From the IMG/VR virus record IMGVR_UViG_3300046004_001875, positions 1-31,060 of that record: a DNA stretch of 31,060 nucleotides; one strand, given 5' to 3'. This document shows positions 744-30,803 of the stretch, one piece after another (position 1 is the first letter of the stretch; each line of letters starts with the position of its first letter). The notes under the pieces were generated by a model that ran no database searches, was not told the DNA's origin, and saw nothing but the letters and a program-made list of their open reading frames with translations. This stretch comes from a virus. The position numbers were made by a program, and so were the translations under genes.

Positions 744-775
744 TTTGTCTATGTAAATAAAAGATGTTATATTAT
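744..775 (+). promoter_or_regulatory. Bacteroidota-type promoter upstream of folE
   Basis: TTTG at 744-747, a 20-nt spacer, then TATATTAT at 768-775. The same spacing recurs at eight other sites in the window. It would start transcription around 780, just before the ATG at 797. Confidence 0.55.
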
Positions 776-5161: not shown

Positions 5162-5193
5162 TTTGGCTACTCAAAATTAATTATTTATATTTA
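5162..5193 (+). promoter_or_regulatory. Bacteroidota-type promoter
   Basis: TTTG at 5162-5165 (in GTTTGGC), a 20-nt spacer, then TATATTTA at 5186-5193. It lies 16 bases before the small gene starting at 5209 and matches the GTTTGGC form of the sites at 28771, 30348 and 30772. Confidence 0.6.
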
Positions 5194-5759: not shown

Positions 5760-5791
5760 TTTGATAATCTAAATATTTTTTATTATATTAT
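5760..5791 (+). promoter_or_regulatory. Bacteroidota-type promoter of the clamp/chaperonin operon
   Basis: TTTG at 5760-5763, a 20-nt spacer and TATATTAT at 5784-5791, almost touching the ATG at 5796. The next similar site I see between genes is at 14827, so this may drive everything from the sliding clamp to the glycosyltransferases. The very short distance to ATG implies a near-leaderless mRNA for the clamp gene. Confidence 0.5.
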
Positions 5792-14871: not shown

Positions 14872-15345
14872 ATGGATAATTTAATAATATGTAAAAGATG
14901 TGGCTCAGACGCATGCATGGAAACTGAACCATACAGTGGTATAAAATCATATCACTGTATGGGGTGTGGTTTCACTACAAACACTCTCATGAAAGAGGGT
15001 GAAGCGTTCCTAGAAGAACAAAAAGAAATTTTACCTGAATTGTATAAAGATCTAATGTTTACAGATGATGAAGGAAAAGTTTGGATGCCTTCATCTGTGA
15101 ATTCACCGGAACGTGGGATGGTGTTTGCAAACGGGACTAATGCTTCATTATGGAAATGGTCAGCTGTAAAAGCAGTACCTGTACTAGAAGAAGAAAAAGA
15201 AAAATACCCAATAAAATCAAAAAAGGGAGAATACTATAAATTCAGAATGGATATGGATACAATACAACATTTCGATGAAGGTGATTATATGGAAGCATTA
15301 AGTTACATAAATATCCTCCCTCAAGAAGAAAGTTTGGAAGACTAA
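14872..15345 (+). CDS. Zinc-ribbon protein (157 aa), function unknown
   Basis: The N-terminal 35 residues carry two CxxC knuckles (ICKRCGSD and YHCMGCGF), a four-cysteine zinc ribbon. The rest is acidic and aromatic, with KVWMPSSVNSPERGMVF and KWSAVKAVPVLEEE, and no catalytic motif I can name. It has its own promoter upstream, and the next promoter (15333) overlaps its final codons. Zinc ribbons of this kind occur in nucleic-acid-binding and transcription-related phage proteins, but no specific role can be assigned. Confidence 0.65.
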   Translation: MDNLIICKRCGSDACMETEPYSGIKSYHCMGCGFTTNTLMKEGEAFLEEQKEILPELYKDLMFTDDEGKVWMPSSVNSPERGMVFANGTNASLWKWSAVKAVPVLEEEKEKYPIKSKKGEYYKFRMDMDTIQHFDEGDYMEALSYINILPQEESLED

Positions 15346-15364
15346 AAATAAGGTATTATATTTG
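15333..15364 (+). promoter_or_regulatory. Strong Bacteroidota-type promoter for the sugar operon
   Basis: TTTG at 15333-15336, a 20-nt spacer, then TATATTTG at 15357-15364, a full match to the Bacteroidota -7 consensus TAnnTTTG. It begins inside the last codons of the zinc-ribbon gene and points at the genes from 15379 onward. I see no comparable site between genes until 26498, so it may drive about 11 kb. Confidence 0.6.
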
Positions 15365-23776: not shown

Positions 23777-24273
23777 TACTAAATGTAAAAAACTATATTA
23801 AAGATAAATACATCACTGATGTAATTGATTTTCCAACTAAAGGCGTTATATTTAGAGATATTTCTCCTTTACTTAAATCTCCGTATTTTCCAAGACTTAT
23901 TAAAGAAATGTCTTTACACGTACCTTTACCTGATTATTGGGTAGGAATTGACTCAAGAGGATTTATATTTGCTTCAGCTTTATCAGTCCAAACAGATAAA
24001 GGAATGATAATGTGTCGAAAAAAAGGAAAATTACCACCACCTGTTGTTAATGAAACATATTCTTTGGAATATGGAGAGGATACATTAGAAATCCATCCTG
24101 GAGTAGGGAAGGTAGTTATTGTTGATGATGTGTATGCTACTGGTGGAACTATGGAAGCTGTTGAAAAATTATGTGAAAAAGCAGGTTATACTGTTGTAGG
24201 TAAATTAGTTTTAATTGATTTAAAATATTTACATGGATCGACAGATGTTAAAAGTTTAATACAATATGAATAG
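23773..24273 (+). CDS. apt: Adenine phosphoribosyltransferase
   Basis: A 166-residue type I phosphoribosyltransferase: adenine plus PRPP gives AMP. Family features are DFPTKGVIFRDISPLL near the N-terminus, YWVGIDSRGFIFASAL, the flexible-loop region RKKGKLPPPVVNETYSLEYG, and the PRPP motif VVIVDDVYATGGTMEA. Length is typical of Apt (about 170-180). It overlaps the preceding epimerase gene by ATGA and the following nucleosidase-like gene by eight bases. The pair suggests an adenine-recovery step inside the sugar operon. Confidence 0.93.
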   Translation: MILNVKNYIKDKYITDVIDFPTKGVIFRDISPLLKSPYFPRLIKEMSLHVPLPDYWVGIDSRGFIFASALSVQTDKGMIMCRKKGKLPPPVVNETYSLEYGEDTLEIHPGVGKVVIVDDVYATGGTMEAVEKLCEKAGYTVVGKLVLIDLKYLHGSTDVKSLIQYE

Positions 24274-24817
24274 AGTGTTTATAATAGCAGTTCCTGATGA
24301 AGTGGAAATGCAAGGTGAAATATTAGGATCTCCTGTTATATTTAGTGGAGTTGGAAAAGTAAATGCGACCATAGCCGCTTGTAAAGCATTTAACCAAGGA
24401 TATAATGAAATTATCAATGTTGGTTCTTGTGGTTCATTATTATTACCTGTAGGAGAAATAGTTAAAGTAGGTAAAGTATTCCAAGATATAGACGCCACTC
24501 CATTAACAGATTATGGTAAAACACCGTTTGAAGATGATGCGAGTAAAATAATTTTAAATCCTTTATACTTTACAAGTTGCTTTACAACAGATTATTTTTA
24601 TGACCATAACCAAATAAACAAATACTCAGAAAATTATTTGGAAATGATAAATAAATGTAGTATATTTGATATGGAATGTTTTGCAATTGCTAAAGTATGC
24701 AAATGTTTTAATATTAAATTTACCTCATATAAATGGGTATCAGATGGTGGTGATGGTGGTAATTGGAAAGAAAATTGTAAAATTGGATTTAAAAAAATAA
24801 AAAATATATTATGTTAA
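24266..24817 (+). CDS. MTAN-like nucleosidase (PNP/UDP family)
   Basis: A 183-residue nucleoside phosphorylase-family protein. VFSG-type strand then SGVGKVNATIAACKAF, INVGSCGSLLLPVGEI, the purine/ribose site IFDMECFAIAKVC with Glu in the DME triad, and YKWVSDGGD with the catalytic Asp. These are the landmarks of methylthioadenosine/S-adenosylhomocysteine nucleosidases (Pfs/MTAN), which release adenine from MTA, SAH and 5'-deoxyadenosine. It is about 45 residues shorter than E. coli MTAN, with a contracted middle, so substrate preference is uncertain. Directly after apt, it would supply adenine to that enzyme. Confidence 0.8.
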   Translation: MNRVFIIAVPDEVEMQGEILGSPVIFSGVGKVNATIAACKAFNQGYNEIINVGSCGSLLLPVGEIVKVGKVFQDIDATPLTDYGKTPFEDDASKIILNPLYFTSCFTTDYFYDHNQINKYSENYLEMINKCSIFDMECFAIAKVCKCFNIKFTSYKWVSDGGDGGNWKENCKIGFKKIKNILC

Positions 24818-25614
24818 AATCATTAGAAATAATAGAAACTCAATTTGGAAATTTTATCATAGATGAATATGATTTAATTGGTAATTATATCAAACAAGCT
24901 AAAGTATGGGAATATCATCTATATGAAATATATTCTCAAATGATTGATAAAGAATCATACTGCATAGATGCAGGAGCTAATTTAGGGTTCCATTCCGTTC
25001 AATTTGGTCGTTTAGGAAAAAAAGTTTATTCATTTGAACCTCAATCTTATATATACAATCAATTATGTACTAATGTGTTATTTAATGGATTAGATAATAT
25101 TATTGAAACATATAAATTGGGGTTAGGTGATAAAGAAGAAAAAAAACAAATGTGGAACATAGAACATGAAAATTGGGTGGGAAATGGATCTCATAATTGG
25201 GGGGGTAGAGGAATAATTCAAGATAATTACGGAGGAGAAAGAGCTATTAAAAACGAAATTAGAGATGAAGATATAATAAATGTTATAACATTGGATTCTT
25301 TAAGTATACCTAAATGTGATTTAATGAAAATAGATGTTCAAGGGTATGAATATCATTTATTGAAAGGAGCTAATGAATTAATAATTAAATTTAAACCTGT
25401 TATATTTTTAGAAAATCCTATCTTAGGAGAAGAAGATATAAAATCTTCATATATAACAAAAAATCATTTATTGGATATAGGATATGAATTTTATAGAATA
25501 CACTTAAATAATAAAGAAGATTGTATTATTATTCATCCTTCTAGTAATTATTATAGTAAAAATATAGAAGTTATTAATAAATTCGCAAATAAATATAATA
25601 TAATTAAAGAATAA
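24811..25614 (+). CDS. FkbM-family methyltransferase
   Basis: A 267-residue SAM-dependent O-methyltransferase. Motif I is YCIDAGANLGFHSVQFGRLG, strand 2 ends in VYSFEPQSYIYNQL (FEP is a hallmark of FkbM proteins), and DLMKIDVQGYEYHLLKGA is the family signature, followed by VIFLENPI. FkbM enzymes often methylate hydroxyls of sugars or polyketides and are frequent in O-antigen and capsule loci. It overlaps the nucleosidase gene by seven bases and the next gene by one (TAATG). Confidence 0.88.
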   Translation: MLKSLEIIETQFGNFIIDEYDLIGNYIKQAKVWEYHLYEIYSQMIDKESYCIDAGANLGFHSVQFGRLGKKVYSFEPQSYIYNQLCTNVLFNGLDNIIETYKLGLGDKEEKKQMWNIEHENWVGNGSHNWGGRGIIQDNYGGERAIKNEIRDEDIINVITLDSLSIPKCDLMKIDVQGYEYHLLKGANELIIKFKPVIFLENPILGEEDIKSSYITKNHLLDIGYEFYRIHLNNKEDCIIIHPSSNYYSKNIEVINKFANKYNIIKE

Positions 25615-26480
25615 TGAAGACAGCAGTTGTAACATTTAGTAGAAATGATGGATATAAAGAAAAAGAAAGAGTCGCTATACATTTAAATACTTTATTAGAT
25701 ACTTTTGATGAAGTAAATTATGTAGATTGGAATTCTCCCACCCATAGTTTATTATATGACGTAATGGATTTAATTCCTAAAACAGGACGAATTAAACATT
25801 TTGTTATCCCCCCATCTGTTCATCAAATATATGATAATAGTATACCTAATTTTCCTAATTGTTTTGGACCTATTTCATTTAATTTAGCCTTAAGAAGAAC
25901 AGATGCTGATTGGGTTGTGGCTACTACAACAGATAATATTCCTCCTAACAAAGAAGAATTACATAGTATTATTAATAATGATAAAGATACATTTTATACT
26001 ATTAGCAGAAGAGAAATAGAATACTCAGAAGTATTAAAAAATATCAATAATCTCCAAGAATATAGAGAATATTTAAAACAAATAACTGAACCTAGATATT
26101 ATCCAGCAAAAGTGACTCCTAATGATGAATATAGTTTAATTAATTGTTGTGGTGATTTTCAATTAGCATCTCGTAAAGTGTGGTGGGATATTAAAGGATT
26201 TGAAGAAAATATGTTTTATAATTGTTTTATAGACACAAATGTGCAAAAAAAAGCAGTTTTAAATGGATATAAAATAAAAGCATTATTTGATATTCCAATG
26301 TATCATATGTCCCATGATAATATACTACCTCAGGTTCATACTACAAAATTACATAAAAACGCAAGTAAAAAACCAATCATATATAATGATTCATGGGATT
26401 GGGTAGAATATTTTACAGAATCACAAAATAGTGATAATTGGGGATTAGCAGATACTGAAATTGAATATGAAATGGTTTAA
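25614..26480 (+). CDS. Putative GT-A-like glycosyltransferase
   Basis: A 288-residue protein with a GT-A-like outline: KTAVVTFSRNDGYKEKER opens like a nucleotide-binding strand and loop, FNLALRRTDADWVVATTTDN holds an acidic cluster in the place of a DxD motif, and FQLASRKVWWDIKGFEENM resembles the acceptor-side segment (W-x-x-x-GF-x-E) of GT2/GT27-type enzymes. A His near the end (PMYHMSHD) could be the metal-ligand histidine seen in such enzymes. It is the last gene of the sugar operon. Similarity is weaker than for the other transferases, so the exact family is open. Confidence 0.7.
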   Translation: MKTAVVTFSRNDGYKEKERVAIHLNTLLDTFDEVNYVDWNSPTHSLLYDVMDLIPKTGRIKHFVIPPSVHQIYDNSIPNFPNCFGPISFNLALRRTDADWVVATTTDNIPPNKEELHSIINNDKDTFYTISRREIEYSEVLKNINNLQEYREYLKQITEPRYYPAKVTPNDEYSLINCCGDFQLASRKVWWDIKGFEENMFYNCFIDTNVQKKAVLNGYKIKALFDIPMYHMSHDNILPQVHTTKLHKNASKKPIIYNDSWDWVEYFTESQNSDNWGLADTEIEYEMV

Positions 26481-26497
26481 AATAAACATCCAAAATA

Positions 26498-26529
26498 TTT
26501 GGGAATACTAAAATGATTTAGTATATTTA
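26498..26529 (+). promoter_or_regulatory. Bacteroidota-type promoter with inverted repeat in the spacer
   Basis: TTTG at 26498-26501, a 20-nt spacer, TATATTTA at 26522-26529. A perfect 8-bp inverted repeat (ATACTAAA 26505-26512, TTTAGTAT 26517-26524, four-base loop) spans the spacer and the start of the -7 element. Precedes the small membrane-protein gene at 26544. Confidence 0.55.
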
Positions 26530-26543
26530 AGTAAATAAAAATT

Positions 26544-26726
26544 ATGAAAGAAACACTTAAAGAAATTATTGGATTTACTATATTTGCTGCATTTGTTTGC
26601 ATTTATGGGATTTATTTATTATTATATAATAATACTATTACTTCAAATAAATTATTAACCCCAACAGTAGAATTAAAAATAAAAAATAATAAAGTTGATA
26701 CATTTTATATTTACAAATTAAAATAA
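26544..26726 (+). CDS. Small single-pass membrane protein (60 aa)
   Basis: After a short charged N-terminus (MKETLKEI) a hydrophobic segment of about 20 residues (IGFTIFAAFVCIYGIYLLLY) forms one transmembrane helix, followed by a polar tail. No signal-peptidase or lipobox site is evident. It has its own promoter-like site with a hairpin. Function unknown. Confidence 0.6.
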   Translation: MKETLKEIIGFTIFAAFVCIYGIYLLLYNNTITSNKLLTPTVELKIKNNKVDTFYIYKLK

Positions 26727-26731
26727 AAATT

Positions 26732-26890
26732 ATGTTATACGGATTTTATAGTAGATTAGACCCAAACCAAGAAATAATTAATCGTTTGATCAACATATCA
26801 CGATTAAAGGCAGCTGAATCATTTGCAAATAGAAAGAGATTAGATCTCAAATCATTTTTAAAAATATATGGGGTTAAAAAATTAAGATAA
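26732..26890 (+). CDS. Small hypothetical protein (52 aa)
   Basis: Frame from ATG 26732 (context AAAATTATG) to TAA 26888-26890, with one base shared with the next gene. It opens MLYGFYSRLDPNQEI and continues with a basic helix (NRKRLDLKSFLKIYGV). The tight packing and typical start context support it. I have an impression that similar short proteins occur in T4-type marine phages, but cannot confirm it; no function is known to me. Confidence 0.6.
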   Translation: MLYGFYSRLDPNQEIINRLINISRLKAAESFANRKRLDLKSFLKIYGVKKLR

Positions 26891-27276
26891 TGGATATAAA
26901 AAATTTCGGCCAGCGTCTTAAATTAGAAGAATCTAAGACATCGAGGGTAAAAAAAGAGAAAGAAGTATTTATTGAGACTGTAACATTATTAGAACATTGC
27001 CTTCAGCGTTCTGATATTTTATATGAAGAGTTTAATATTGATATTTATTCGTATGAAGAATATTTTATTAAAATAATTGAGAATTTATTCTTACTTAAAT
27101 ACGGTGAAGCAGTAACTGATATAATAATTTGGTATTTATATGATAGAGTAGATGAAGATGGAAAAGTATATTCTTTAATATATGAAGAAGAAGAAAAACC
27201 ACCAATTGAAATAAAAATAAACAAACCAGCAGATCTGTGGAAATTTATAGATAAATTGTTAAAAACAAAACCATGA
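26890..27276 (+). CDS. Hypothetical acidic protein (128 aa)
   Basis: Unrecognised protein with a basic N-terminus (residues 1-25), a helical middle rich in Glu, Ile and Tyr (EEYFIKIIENLFLLKYGE) and a Pro/Lys-containing C-terminus (KINKPADLWKFIDKLL). It shares one base with the gene before and four with the gene after (ATGA), so these small genes are co-translated. No domain identified. Confidence 0.65.
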   Translation: MDIKNFGQRLKLEESKTSRVKKEKEVFIETVTLLEHCLQRSDILYEEFNIDIYSYEEYFIKIIENLFLLKYGEAVTDIIIWYLYDRVDEDGKVYSLIYEEEEKPPIEIKINKPADLWKFIDKLLKTKP

Positions 27277-27530
27277 GTGAATTAATTAAATATTGTAAAT
27301 GTGGGATACAAATCCCCCCAGCTAGATTAAAAATTTTACCTAACACACACACGTGTGTTAATTGTTCTGATGTGCAAACTAAAAAACCAGTTATAGTACA
27401 GCGTGGGAAAGGTGATCATACTTATACTGAAACTGTGGTTTTAGATCATGAAGAATATATTAAGTATATTGAAGAAGAAAATAAATTTAAAAAACGCATG
27501 TCGTCAGGATTAGATACTCCCAGCATGTAG
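27273..27530 (+). CDS. DksA/TraR-like zinc-finger protein
   Basis: An 85-residue protein whose first 40 residues match the C4 zinc finger of the DksA/TraR group: YCKCGIQIPPARLKILPNTH, then TCVNCSD, i.e. C-x-CG-x-x-IP-x-x-RL-x-x-x-P and C-x2-C. DksA and TraR bind the RNA polymerase secondary channel through a coiled coil; that coiled coil is not evident here, so RNA polymerase binding cannot be assumed. The C-terminal half is acidic and polar. Possible roles are regulation of host transcription or a structural zinc module. Confidence 0.7.
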   Translation: MSELIKYCKCGIQIPPARLKILPNTHTCVNCSDVQTKKPVIVQRGKGDHTYTETVVLDHEEYIKYIEEENKFKKRMSSGLDTPSM

Positions 27531-27538
27531 TATAAATA
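27531..27538 (+). promoter_or_regulatory. T4-late-promoter-like TATAAATA box
   Basis: Exact TATAAATA, the T4 late -10 sequence, right after the DksA-like gene and 31 bases before the ATG at 27570. In such AT-rich DNA a chance match is quite possible. Confidence 0.25.
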
Positions 27539-27569
27539 ATATCTATTTTTGAATGTAAAAATTAATTAT

Positions 27570-28241
27570 ATGCCGAAATCTCGCCCCCTCTCAAAACAAG
27601 ATATATTAGCTGCTATGAGTCAAACAAAATCAAATAGAAGTAGTGCTAGATATCTTAATTGTAGTTACATTCATTATAAAAAATGGGCTAAACTTTATGA
27701 GGCTACTGATTCATCTTTCCCAAACTTATTTGAACAACATAAAAACCAATCCGGTAAGGGAATACCTAAATTTTTAAGTAATACACCATTTGGTAGAAAA
27801 GAACCATGTATACAGAAAATTATAGATGGAACAGAAGATCCATCCCCATTTAATCCTCAAAAAATTAAACATAGGATGATTCAGCAGGGTTATTTAAAAG
27901 AAGAATGTGGTACCTGTGGTTTTCATGAATGTAGAGCAATTGATGGAAAAACTCCCCTGATATTACATTTTAAAGATAATAATAAAAAACATTGGGAACC
28001 AAGCAATCTTCAAATGCTTTGTTATAATTGTTATTTCCTTTACCATAGGAATATATTTAATGATAAACAATTAGAAAAAATGGAAGATCATTTACCAACA
28101 AGAGAAAACTTACCAACTTGGGAGGTGGATGAATATACTCAAAAACGCCTTGAAGAATTAGGGTTATATGATGTTAAAATAGATAATGACCCATATGACT
28201 TAGTATCTAGAAATAAAGAACGCAAATCGAATAACCTATAA
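27570..28241 (+). CDS. HNH-type zinc-finger nuclease-like protein
   Basis: A 223-residue protein with an N-terminal helix-turn-helix-like region (LSKQDILAAMSQTKSNRSSA followed by RYLNCSYIHYKKWAK) and a C-terminal zinc/HNH-like module: ECGTCGFHEC, PLILHFKDNNKKHWE, then NLQMLCYNCYFLYH. The order CxxC, His in a strand, Asn-Leu-x-x-LC-x-x-C is that of HNH endonucleases in many phages. A TTG start at 27549 is possible, but ATG 27570 has the usual context (AATTATATG) and begins the conserved-looking segment MPKSRPL. It may nick DNA, or be a DNA-binding protein without activity; the canonical HNH catalytic histidine pair is not obvious. Confidence 0.65.
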   Translation: MPKSRPLSKQDILAAMSQTKSNRSSARYLNCSYIHYKKWAKLYEATDSSFPNLFEQHKNQSGKGIPKFLSNTPFGRKEPCIQKIIDGTEDPSPFNPQKIKHRMIQQGYLKEECGTCGFHECRAIDGKTPLILHFKDNNKKHWEPSNLQMLCYNCYFLYHRNIFNDKQLEKMEDHLPTRENLPTWEVDEYTQKRLEELGLYDVKIDNDPYDLVSRNKERKSNNL

Positions 28242-28244
28242 ATA
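28237..28244 (+). promoter_or_regulatory. T4-late-promoter-like TATAAATA box
   Basis: Second exact TATAAATA, overlapping the stop codon of the HNH-like gene and 13 bases before ATG 28257. It is part of the short palindrome ATAAATATTTAT (28238-28249). Chance is not excluded. Confidence 0.25.
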
Positions 28245-28256
28245 TTTATCAGTGAT

Positions 28257-28415
28257 ATGAAGAAGATTAAAAAACATCAAGAAATAATAAGAGATTATGA
28301 ATCTCAAAAAGCAAAACATTTAGAAAAAATAGCTAGTAAAATACTAAATAATGATGAAAAGTTTTCTAAATTAAAAGAAAAAGAAACAAGTTTAAAATTT
28401 TTAAAATTATTCTAA
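28257..28415 (+). CDS. Small charged helical protein (52 aa)
   Basis: Frame from ATG 28257 to TAA 28413-28415, one base before the next ATG. Very rich in Lys and Glu (MKKIKKHQEIIRDYESQKAK, then KLKEKETSLKFLKLF), probably one long amphipathic helix or coiled coil. No family recognised; position and packing are the support. Confidence 0.5.
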   Translation: MKKIKKHQEIIRDYESQKAKHLEKIASKILNNDEKFSKLKEKETSLKFLKLF

Positions 28416-28416
28416 A

Positions 28417-28749
28417 ATGGCTCTAGAAATGAATGTAAATAATATTGAAGAATTTCAAATTATGATAGATAATAAGGATTTTAGGATCTCTGAGTCAATA
28501 ACTAAAACTATATTGGATAATGTAAATACTAAGAAAAAACATATTCATATAATTTCAATAAATGTTTTAGAAAATAATACTATATTGGACTTGACTTTAG
28601 AGAAGAAATTTTTTATTGAAACTTTAGAGGAAAATTTGAAATTTTTTATTGAACGTGAAAGATATGAGGATTGTCAAAATATAGTGAACGCAATTAATCA
28701 ATTGAAAAATAATAACAGTTCAATTGATAAGAAAAAAAGAAAAAAATAA
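28417..28749 (+). CDS. Hypothetical protein (110 aa)
   Basis: Unrecognised, charged, helix-rich protein with a Lys-rich C-terminus (SIDKKKRKK). Features such as HIHIISINVLENN suggest a central strand, followed by helices containing ERERYEDCQNIVNAINQL, a region resembling short UvrB/UvrC-like or TPR-like helices, though I would not assign either. It is the last gene before the hairpin-bearing promoter at 28771. Confidence 0.6.
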   Translation: MALEMNVNNIEEFQIMIDNKDFRISESITKTILDNVNTKKKHIHIISINVLENNTILDLTLEKKFFIETLEENLKFFIERERYEDCQNIVNAINQLKNNNSSIDKKKRKK

Positions 28750-28770
28750 GTAATTAAATAATTAAAAAAG

Positions 28771-28802
28771 TTTGGCTCCACTAAGGAGCCTCCTTATATT
28801 TA
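28771..28802 (+). promoter_or_regulatory. Promoter with GGCTCC/GGAGCC hairpin in the spacer
   Basis: TTTG 28771-28774, 20-nt spacer, TATATTTA 28795-28802. A perfect 6-bp stem (GGCTCC 28774-28779, GGAGCC 28785-28790, loop ACTAA) starts in the -33 element. It lies between two genes and could also end transcripts from upstream, because a T-rich tract follows. Confidence 0.6.
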
Positions 28803-28822
28803 ACTAATAAAAACATAACAAA

Positions 28823-29140
28823 ATGAAATTATTTAAAGGATTATTAGAGTTATTAACTACTCTTATCTATATTTTTATTATCACTATATTCATGTATGTG
28901 GCGTGGGCCGGTTGGTTTAAAATAATTCCTTTATCTCGATTAAAAAAAGATGATGCTCCATTGATTGCAACAGTAATAAATTTTCTATACTTGATTATTT
29001 TATTCATATTATCATTTATTACAGATGGTATAATACAAGATGATATTATGTTATTTATGATTTATAATTGGTTCTATAATGTTATATTTATCATAATAGG
29101 CATCCTATTATATGTAATTATCCCTAATAGAAATGATTAA
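28823..29140 (+). CDS. Multi-pass membrane protein (105 aa)
   Basis: Three hydrophobic segments: about residues 8-28 (LLTTLIYIFIITIFMYVAWA), 49-68 (TVINFLYLIILFILSFI) and 78-100 (MIYNWFYNVIFIIIGILLYV), linked by short charged loops (SRLKKDDAP, DGIIQDD). A small inner-membrane protein of unknown role; it does not look like a canonical holin, which would usually lie near lysis genes, none of which are visible. Confidence 0.7.
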   Translation: MKLFKGLLELLTTLIYIFIITIFMYVAWAGWFKIIPLSRLKKDDAPLIATVINFLYLIILFILSFITDGIIQDDIMLFMIYNWFYNVIFIIIGILLYVIIPNRND

Positions 29141-29142
29141 AA

Positions 29143-29274
29143 ATGAAAAAGATTGAAGTAACAATGCAAGAAATTTGGATGATGACAAAACCCACCATTC
29201 ATAAAAATAAGAAAAAATATACCCGTAAAGCTAAACATAAGAAAAATAAAATAACAAACAATGGGATTACCTAA
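29143..29274 (+). CDS. Small very basic protein (43 aa)
   Basis: Frame from ATG 29143, two bases after the membrane-protein stop, to TAA 29272-29274, overlapping the ligase start by 14 bases. Almost half of the second part is Lys/Arg/His (HKNKKKYTRKAKHKKNK), suggesting nucleic-acid binding. No family recognised. It fills an otherwise empty 120-base gap. Confidence 0.45.
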   Translation: MKKIEVTMQEIWMMTKPTIHKNKKKYTRKAKHKKNKITNNGIT

Positions 29275-30343
29275 ATTATTTAAACGAGCTATAAATGGTA
29301 AAATACTTCAGTGGGAAATCGAAATTGAAGGAGCATGCTTTAGGACAATTTCAGGTTACACAGATGGAATTAAAACTCAATCCCAGCCTACTATATGCTC
29401 AGGAAAAAATCAAGGTAAGAAAAACTCCACTACACCTGAACAACAAGCCTTAGCTGAAGCTAAAGCAATGTTTCGTAAGCGTAAGGAGATGGGCTCATTT
29501 GAATCAATAAATGATATTGATAACCCGGTTTATTTTAAACCCATGTTGGCTCATGATTTTAATGACTATAAGGATAAATTAAAATTTCCTTTATTCAGTC
29601 AGCCAAAACTCGATGGAATTAGATGTATCGTTAAATCAGATGGGATGTGGAGTCGTAATGGCAAACCTATTATTTCAGCACCTCATATATTTGAGGCTAT
29701 TAAACCATTGTTTGAAGTTAATCCTGATTTGATTTTTGATGGTGAATTGTACGCTAATAAGGATGTGGCTGATTTTAATACAATTGTTTCTTGTGTTCGT
29801 AAGACAAAACCAACATTAACTGATTTAGAAACATCTAAGAAAATCCAATATTGGATTTATGATATGCCTAGTGTTAGTGGTGGGTTTTCTAAAAGAGAAA
29901 ATGAATTAATAGAGATGGAATTACCTGAATGTTGTGTTAAAGTACAATCTGTTTGTTGCATTAATGAAAATGCAGTTAAACATCATTATGAATATTATAT
30001 GGAACAAGGTTATGAAGGACAAATGATTAGAACTGATAGTGAATATGAAAATAAACGTTCTAAATCACTTTTAAAACATAAATTGTTTGTTGATGATGAA
30101 TTTGAAATATTAGGTGTTGAAGAAGGAAAAGGTAATTTATCAGGAAAAGTTGGTCGTCTTAATTTTAAAATAAATGGAAAACCATTTGACGCCGCTGTAA
30201 ATGGAGATTGGGAATATATTGAACGTTTATGGAAAAGTAAAGATGGATTAATAGGTAAAATGGCTACAGTTAAATACTTTGAATTAACTGAAGATGGTAT
30301 TCCCCGATTTCCAAAGATTATAGCAATTAGAGATTTCGAATAA
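29261..30343 (+). CDS. ATP-dependent DNA ligase
   Basis: A 360-residue ligase that seals nicks in DNA through a lysyl-AMP intermediate. Motif I is K116-L-D118-G-I-R (SQPKLDGIRC) with the adenylated lysine; motif III lies in DGELYANK, motif IV in YEGQMIR, and motif V in LLKHKLF; an OB-fold C-terminus follows (LSGKVGRLNFKI, GLIGKMATVKYFEL). The first 80 residues form an extra N-terminal region with GKNQGKKNSTTPEQQALAEA. The size resembles T7 ligase (359 aa) rather than T4 ligase (487). Likely function is joining Okazaki fragments and repair during phage replication. Confidence 0.94.
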   Translation: MGLPKLFKRAINGKILQWEIEIEGACFRTISGYTDGIKTQSQPTICSGKNQGKKNSTTPEQQALAEAKAMFRKRKEMGSFESINDIDNPVYFKPMLAHDFNDYKDKLKFPLFSQPKLDGIRCIVKSDGMWSRNGKPIISAPHIFEAIKPLFEVNPDLIFDGELYANKDVADFNTIVSCVRKTKPTLTDLETSKKIQYWIYDMPSVSGGFSKRENELIEMELPECCVKVQSVCCINENAVKHHYEYYMEQGYEGQMIRTDSEYENKRSKSLLKHKLFVDDEFEILGVEEGKGNLSGKVGRLNFKINGKPFDAAVNGDWEYIERLWKSKDGLIGKMATVKYFELTEDGIPRFPKIIAIRDFE

Positions 30344-30347
30344 TAAG

Positions 30348-30379
30348 TTTGGCTCCCATAAAGAGTCATCTTATATTTA
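30348..30379 (+). promoter_or_regulatory. Promoter with GGCTC/GAGTC hairpin in the spacer
   Basis: TTTG 30348-30351, 20-nt spacer, TATATTTA 30372-30379. Stem GGCTC 30351-30355 with GAGTC 30363-30367 (one G-U pair in RNA). It lies five bases after the ligase stop and precedes the gene at 30397. Confidence 0.6.
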
Positions 30380-30396
30380 AATATAAAATAAGATTT

Positions 30397-30522
30397 ATGA
30401 AAGACATGACTCAAACACTCAAGTGGAAATGGAATGAAAACAAATTAGAGTTTATTGGCTCTATATTGTTTATATCAACATTAGGAACTATTTACTATTT
30501 TGTATTAAATATATGTTATTAA
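30397..30522 (+). CDS. Small single-pass membrane protein (41 aa)
   Basis: Frame from ATG 30397 to TAA 30520-30522, right behind the hairpin promoter at 30348. A polar N-terminus (MKDMTQTLKWKWNENKLEF) is followed by a hydrophobic segment (IGSILFISTLGTIYYFVLNI) forming one membrane helix. Unknown function; the well-placed promoter supports its reality. Confidence 0.5.
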   Translation: MKDMTQTLKWKWNENKLEFIGSILFISTLGTIYYFVLNICY

Positions 30523-30537
30523 CTCATATGTATATAC

Positions 30538-30750
30538 ATGCATCATAATTATATTTCACTGCCCCGAACCGAACTAGAACAACTCATTAAGAAAGCCTAC
30601 TTAAGTGGACAATCTTATTACATAAAAATCTCCAATAACATCCCCGCATCACAGGATTTAGATAGTTATGTGTTAGATGAGATAGAACAAATCTTTAAAT
30701 CACATGCTAAAAACAAACAAGATGAGATTGATGGTTGGGATGGATGTTAA
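30538..30750 (+). CDS. Hypothetical protein (70 aa)
   Basis: Unrecognised small soluble protein; opens MHHNYISLPRTELEQLIKKA and ends with an acidic, Trp-containing tail (DEIDGWDGC). Mixed helix/strand pattern (LSGQSYYIKISN). It lies between two promoter-bearing spacers. Confidence 0.55.
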   Translation: MHHNYISLPRTELEQLIKKAYLSGQSYYIKISNNIPASQDLDSYVLDEIEQIFKSHAKNKQDEIDGWDGC

Positions 30751-30771
30751 AATAAAATTCTAATAAAAAAG

Positions 30772-30803
30772 TTTGGCCTCATTAAGAGGTTTTCTTATAT
30801 TTA
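30772..30803 (+). promoter_or_regulatory. Promoter with GGCCTC/GAGGTT hairpin in the spacer
   Basis: TTTG 30772-30775, 20-nt spacer, TATATTTA 30796-30803. Stem GGCCTC 30775-30780 with GAGGTT 30786-30791 (two G-U pairs in RNA), loop ATTAA. Precedes the gene at 30828. Confidence 0.6.

Follow-up and report, generated by a model that had tools for sequence, protein, structure and literature searches.

The late promoter of phage T4 has no -35 region, and its -10 word differs from the box described below. In Flavobacterium johnsoniae, the promoter of the Bacteroidota primary sigma factor, sigma-ABfr, reads TTTG / TAHHTTTG (PMC6847099), and in cluster K mycobacteriophages a 13-bp start-codon-associated word (SAS) is accompanied, in its extended form (ESAS), by a conserved 17-bp inverted repeat upstream (PMC3203893). 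Here we examine promoter-like sites of a phage at some of which a hairpin lies over the promoter itself.

The window, the whole 31-kb stretch of viral DNA analysed, is a fragment of a T4-like phage carrying genes for PolB, GroEL and DNA ligase. Of the isolates found, Flavobacterium phage vB_FspM_immuto is the nearest: its GroEL is 62% identical, and it has the gene order GTP cyclohydrolase - GroEL - PD-(D/E)XK nuclease - glycosyltransferases in common with the window; on these grounds the host is likely to belong to the Flavobacteriia. A GroEL scan of the genome contigs returned no Flavobacteriia host, and an Rfam search of the window gave no matches. Among the small genes beside the ligase lies an HNH endonuclease-like ORF (27549-28241; phrog_14736).

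Promoter-like sites across the window and related phages

An initial annotation had picked out four promoter-like sites (26498, 28771, 30348 and 30772), each with an inverted repeat between its boxes. All four were recovered with their coordinates and arms (Table 1), the repeat at 26498 being weaker, built of A/T with one G-C pair only, and set in another register, its 3' arm (26517-26524) entering the -7 box. TTTG-N20-TATATTT occurs seven times on the + strand of the window against 0.09 expected (Markov; maximum 1 in 200), and the stricter TTTGG-N19-TATATTTA five times against 0.01, with no match to a control pattern read backwards. The GTP cyclohydrolase ORF probably starts further downstream than its first ATG (764), which the -7 box (768-775) of site 744-775 overlaps; the copy at 24637-24668 is either an internal promoter or chance.

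Table 1. Positions of promoter-like sites, inverted repeats and the sigma-like protein; coordinates are those of the window unless another record is named
Feature	Position	Strand	Sequence and context
Putative promoter	26498..26529	+	TTTG 26498-26501, N20, TATATTTA 26522-26529; 17 nt past stop of ORF 25614-26480; ATG 26544
Weak A/T inverted repeat	26505..26524	+	ATACTAAA-ATGA-TTTAGTAT; other register
Putative promoter	28771..28802	+	TTTG 28771-28774, N20, TATATTTA 28795-28802; stop of ORF 28417-28749 21 nt upstream; ATG 28823
Terminator-like hairpin	28774..28790	+	GGCTCC-ACTAA-GGAGCC; overlaps -33 box; tail TCCTTATATTT takes in -7 box
Putative promoter	30348..30379	+	TTTG 30348-30351, N20, TATATTTA 30372-30379; 4 nt past stop of DNA ligase ORF 29261-30343; next ATG 30397
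Terminator-like hairpin	30350..30368	+	TGGCTC-CCATAAA-GAGTCA; tail TCTTATATTT
Putative promoter	30772..30803	+	TTTG 30772-30775, N20, TATATTTA 30796-30803; 21 nt past stop of ORF 30538-30750; ATG 30828
Terminator-like hairpin	30775..30791	+	GGCCTC-ATTAA-GAGGTT, two G.U pairs; tail TTCTTATATT
Putative promoter, no spacer hairpin	5162..5193	+	ATG 5209 is 15 nt downstream
Putative promoter, no spacer hairpin	15333..15364	+	TATATTTG; overlaps upstream stop; ATG 15379 14 nt downstream
Weaker promoter-like site, no hairpin	744..775	+	TTTG-N20-TATATTAT; 2 nt past ORF 457-741
Weaker promoter-like site, no spacer hairpin	5760..5791	+	TTTG-N20-TATATTAT; directly before ATG 5796
Motif copy	24637-24668	coding strand	ends TATATTTG; within ORF 24266-24817
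Sigma-like protein (sigma-70 region 2 / T4 late sigma)	L373:1318-2028 (G010), L374, L381-L387, NC_055915.1 gp118		

Relatives were gathered in two ways, by ligase similarity (53-77% identity) and by searching for the motif. Among the matches listed, TTTGG-N19-TATATTTA recurs in dozens of phages, many relatives of immuto included, with up to 34 copies per genome; relatives carry 34, 15, 13 and 16 sites on a single strand, with 0-1 for the reversed control, and immuto itself has a single site. The distance between the boxes is exactly 20 in nearly all sites of relatives. The pooled set comprises 358 non-redundant sites (duplicates above 80% identity removed) from phages that are related, so that the sites are not phylogenetically independent; within it the median distance is 7 nt from the upstream stop codon to TTTG and 22 nt from the -7 box to the ATG. 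The motif was not above background in the Bacteroides phages DAC16 and SJC03 or in Microcystis phage Mel-JY01, nor did TTTGG-N19-TATATTTA rise above it in 60 genomes of the host class (a match in 18 of the 60, with similar control counts). A scan of the collection for TTTG-N21, used as the negative comparison, gave matches in unrelated contigs, all but one. Exact spacing, strand bias, placement after stops and before ATGs, and recurrence across phages all uphold the proposed reading as promoters: from their sequence we infer that these are phage-specific Bacteroidota-type promoters, with -33 TTTGG, exactly 20 nt and -7 TATATTTA.

The hairpin as an optional layer over the promoter

Folded against shuffles of the same spacer, 28771 reached -11.5 kcal/mol (P 0.0005), 30772 -6.3 (P 0.012), 30348 -5.2 (P 0.027) and 26498 -3.2 (P 0.022), the spacers at 28771, 30772 and 30348 exceeding their shuffles. 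A terminator scan detects all three of these hairpins, and counts 14 terminators in the half of the window that contains them against 4.1 in shuffles. The hairpin at 28774-28790 is picked up as a terminator on the - strand as well (tail AAACTTTTTT), and could for that reason act in both directions. The same folding comparison found no spacer hairpin at 744, 5162, 5760, 15333 and 24637, and pairing is therefore no constant of the motif.

The arms had been described as covarying. GGCTCC/GGAGCC pairs perfectly, GGCTC/GAGTC contains one G.T and GGCCTC/GAGGTT two, so pairing is indeed kept, but only if G.U is counted, as in RNA of the + strand; moreover, the sites compared are not homologous, as aligned copies of a single site would be. 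A fixed-register spacer covariation in relative G002 (GTTAC/GTAAC, GCTT/AAGC), striking by eye, was not significant (p 0.07-0.09).

Across the 358 sites a hairpin is present at about 10% and missing from 85-90%, and its register shifts. It may lie inside the spacer (the window; GGCTCC..GGAGCC in G014 and G016; GGAGCCCC-GAAA-GGGGCTCC in L171), across the -33 box (AGGTTTGGA-TTT-TCCAAACCT-TTTTT in L106; also L102, L124, L193 and G010), or upstream of that box with a T-run merging into TTTG (L093, L179, L230). When stem 3' ends are scored along 230 nt, they peak at +16..+23, just before the -7 box (30 sites, against about 5 per bin elsewhere), and again at -8..-1 (17 sites, 11 with a T-tail); both peaks are missing on the opposite strand.

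Such pairing might be an accident of composition, the GG of the -33 box meeting C/T-rich bases before the -7 box in a low-GC genome, and the single-site P values of only 0.01-0.03 at 30348, 30772 and 26498, like the weak pairings in G002, would fit that account. However, joining the 5' half of one site to the 3' half of another, which preserves the column composition, lowers strong stems from 9.5% to 0.9% (0 of 100 permutations), and the non-redundant set holds 30 strong hairpins against 8.7 +/- 2.75 after swapping (maximum 17 of 200); site 28771, for its part, stands out from its shuffles by itself. Chance is already contradicted for the pooled set and is a very improbable explanation overall, although it may still hold for 26498, whose A/T repeat makes no convincing terminator.

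Because most sites lack the hairpin and its register varies, it is a separate, optional layer and no conserved part of the promoter, and the original description of a conserved hairpin within the spacer does not survive. Unpaired spacers in relatives, which the initial annotation had named as refuting a role for the pairing, count against pairing as a promoter component but not against a terminator.

Possible roles: termination, processing or recognition

We consider it probable that transcription of the upstream gene terminates intrinsically at the hairpin, on DNA shared with the promoter of the next gene, and that the -7 (or -33) box serves a second time as the U-tract. A terminator insulating each gene while the same DNA serves as promoter was among the options first proposed, and stop-codon position, T enrichment and hairpin excess support it well. 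Stems stable beyond chance lie on the transcribed strand, and 88% of stems begin past the stop of the upstream gene, where random pairing would give 55% (p < 0.0005); where a hairpin overlaps the promoter, the stop lies slightly further away (medians of 17.5 nt with and 4.5 nt without such a hairpin, p 0.005), as expected if the hairpin needs room. A U-tract follows directly behind the stem, with a T fraction of 0.61 for stems ending by +18 and 0.60 in the upstream register, where other sites have 0.43 and 0.40 at the corresponding columns. Some relatives read as textbook terminators (AGGTTTGGA-TTT-TCCAAACCT-TTTTT, GGGGGTTTGG-TTTT-CCAAATCCCC-TTTG, AGAATCCCGAATTACT-TTT-GGTAGTTTGGGATTTT). Of 22 four-base loops, GAAA among them, eight are GNRA and two TTCG, a count to be read knowing that the AAA of the promoter itself can fall in the loop; an excess of G.T over A.C on the transcribed strand (56:21 vs 855:515 in permutations) is suggestive only.

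Read-through RNA arriving from upstream would form, at 28771, 30348 and 30772 and at about one in ten related-phage sites, a hairpin with its 5' arm beginning in the -33 box; the RNA transcribed from the -7 box, U-rich (UUAUAUUU), would supply the U-tract, and polymerase would be released around the -7 to +1 of the next promoter. That promoter, a few bases past the upstream stop and with the next ATG about 20 nt further on, would start its own transcript about 5 nt past the -7 box; if starts fall 4-5 nt past the box, the distance seen in F. johnsoniae, that transcript would not include the hairpin. The element would thereby uncouple neighbouring genes and limit promoter occlusion by read-through. 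With 85-90% of sites lacking a hairpin, such insulation is not general. Both boxes are T-rich by themselves, so that a U-tract behind an adjoining stem is partly automatic, and in the window, where stems have 5-6 bp and tails are only moderately U-rich (UCCUUAUAUUU and similar), termination may accordingly be partial.

A hairpin right behind a stop codon can also shield the 3' end of an mRNA. The hairpins could thus be processing or stabilising structures, at which the upstream mRNA is cut or protected without termination, and the modest tails in the window would suit that role. Yet many relatives have long T-runs right behind the stem (TTTTTT in L106, ATTTTTTTT in L148 and L159), which points to termination, and T enrichment after stems goes beyond the promoter consensus, even if it is weaker at the window sites, whose tails include the -7 box. 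Processing, one of the options first raised, is on this evidence unlikely. Another was a cruciform affecting promoter strength; more broadly, recognition or regulation could involve structured DNA or, on a subset of promoters, a palindrome bound by a dimeric regulator. GGCTCC/GGAGCC-like arms in the same register in the window, G014, G016 and L082 would make a possible binding word. Against this, the arms differ in sequence, their register ranges from upstream of -33 to inside the spacer, two sites (30348 and 30772) pair only with the help of G.T, stems avoid the upstream coding region and are followed by T enrichment, and most promoters have no hairpin; a role in recognition is decidedly unlikely.

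On the preferred reading, a terminator overlaid on a promoter, one element of 30-50 bases would end one gene and start the next, a testable picture of how gene-dense Bacteroidota phages may separate transcription units in less than 50 bases. It defines a strong, recurrent and searchable phage promoter, tied to a candidate phage sigma, and in other compact genomes a hairpin that lies between promoter boxes may be a terminator that has gone unnoticed and not promoter structure.

Comparison with known systems

As in the sigma-ABfr promoter, a -33 TTTG and a -7 TAHHTTT core (TAxxTTT) are separated by about 20 nt, and leaders are short, A-rich and free of Shine-Dalgarno motifs. Unlike the host promoter, with its near-invariant G at -5, nearly all phage sites have A there (6 of 8 in the window; G002 33/35, G017 19/19, G014 13/13, G010 14/14), only G023 having mostly G; and the phage -33 box is strong and extends to TTTGG, the -33 box in the F. 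johnsoniae logo being weak (PMC6847099). Two 400-kb Bacteroidia genome stretches yielded 36 usable host-type promoters, too few to judge whether hosts overlay terminators likewise. The jumbo phage record G023 (412 kb; L250) encodes three unmistakable sigma-70 proteins, with both region 2 and region 4, and its promoters mostly end in the host-like TATATTTG.

With the T4 late promoter (TATAAATA at -10, read by sigma gp55, no upstream box) the system shares its T4-like phages and a weak gp55/sigma region 2-like protein kept in 10 of them; here, by contrast, the -33 box is invariant, and TATATTTA stands at invariant spacing to TTTGG. The protein (233-266 aa; Pfam below cut-off) is conserved in promoter-bearing phages; five of the ten show a weak match to PHROG 'late sigma transcription factor', and the immuto member, gp118, is annotated as hypothetical. 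It may lie behind the altered -5 preference, a lead and not a result. More tentatively, a large group of T4-like Bacteroidota phages might possess a dedicated, compact punctuation in which promoter boxes are reused as U-tract or arm of the preceding terminator, read by a phage-altered holoenzyme preferring A at -5, possibly with this protein.

SAS and ESAS resemble the present sites in being short repeats before many genes, in one orientation, with an inverted repeat in a subset (about half in SAS; PMC3203893). Unlike them, the repeat here is the promoter, and no conserved 17-bp inverted repeat precedes a 13-bp word, the arms differing in both sequence and register. Within the papers searched there was no description of a terminator/promoter overlap, which is weak evidence of absence. 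The combination is real, its parts ordinary and their joining neat: a Bacteroidota-type promoter in a phage-specific form, over which a minority of sites carry what is probably an intrinsic terminator. Like known Rho-independent terminators, these hairpins have a G+C stem, a short loop (GAAA, TTCG) and a T-rich tail, directly past the stop on the transcribed strand; unlike them, they occupy the same DNA as the next promoter, arm and tail coinciding with its -33 and -7 boxes.
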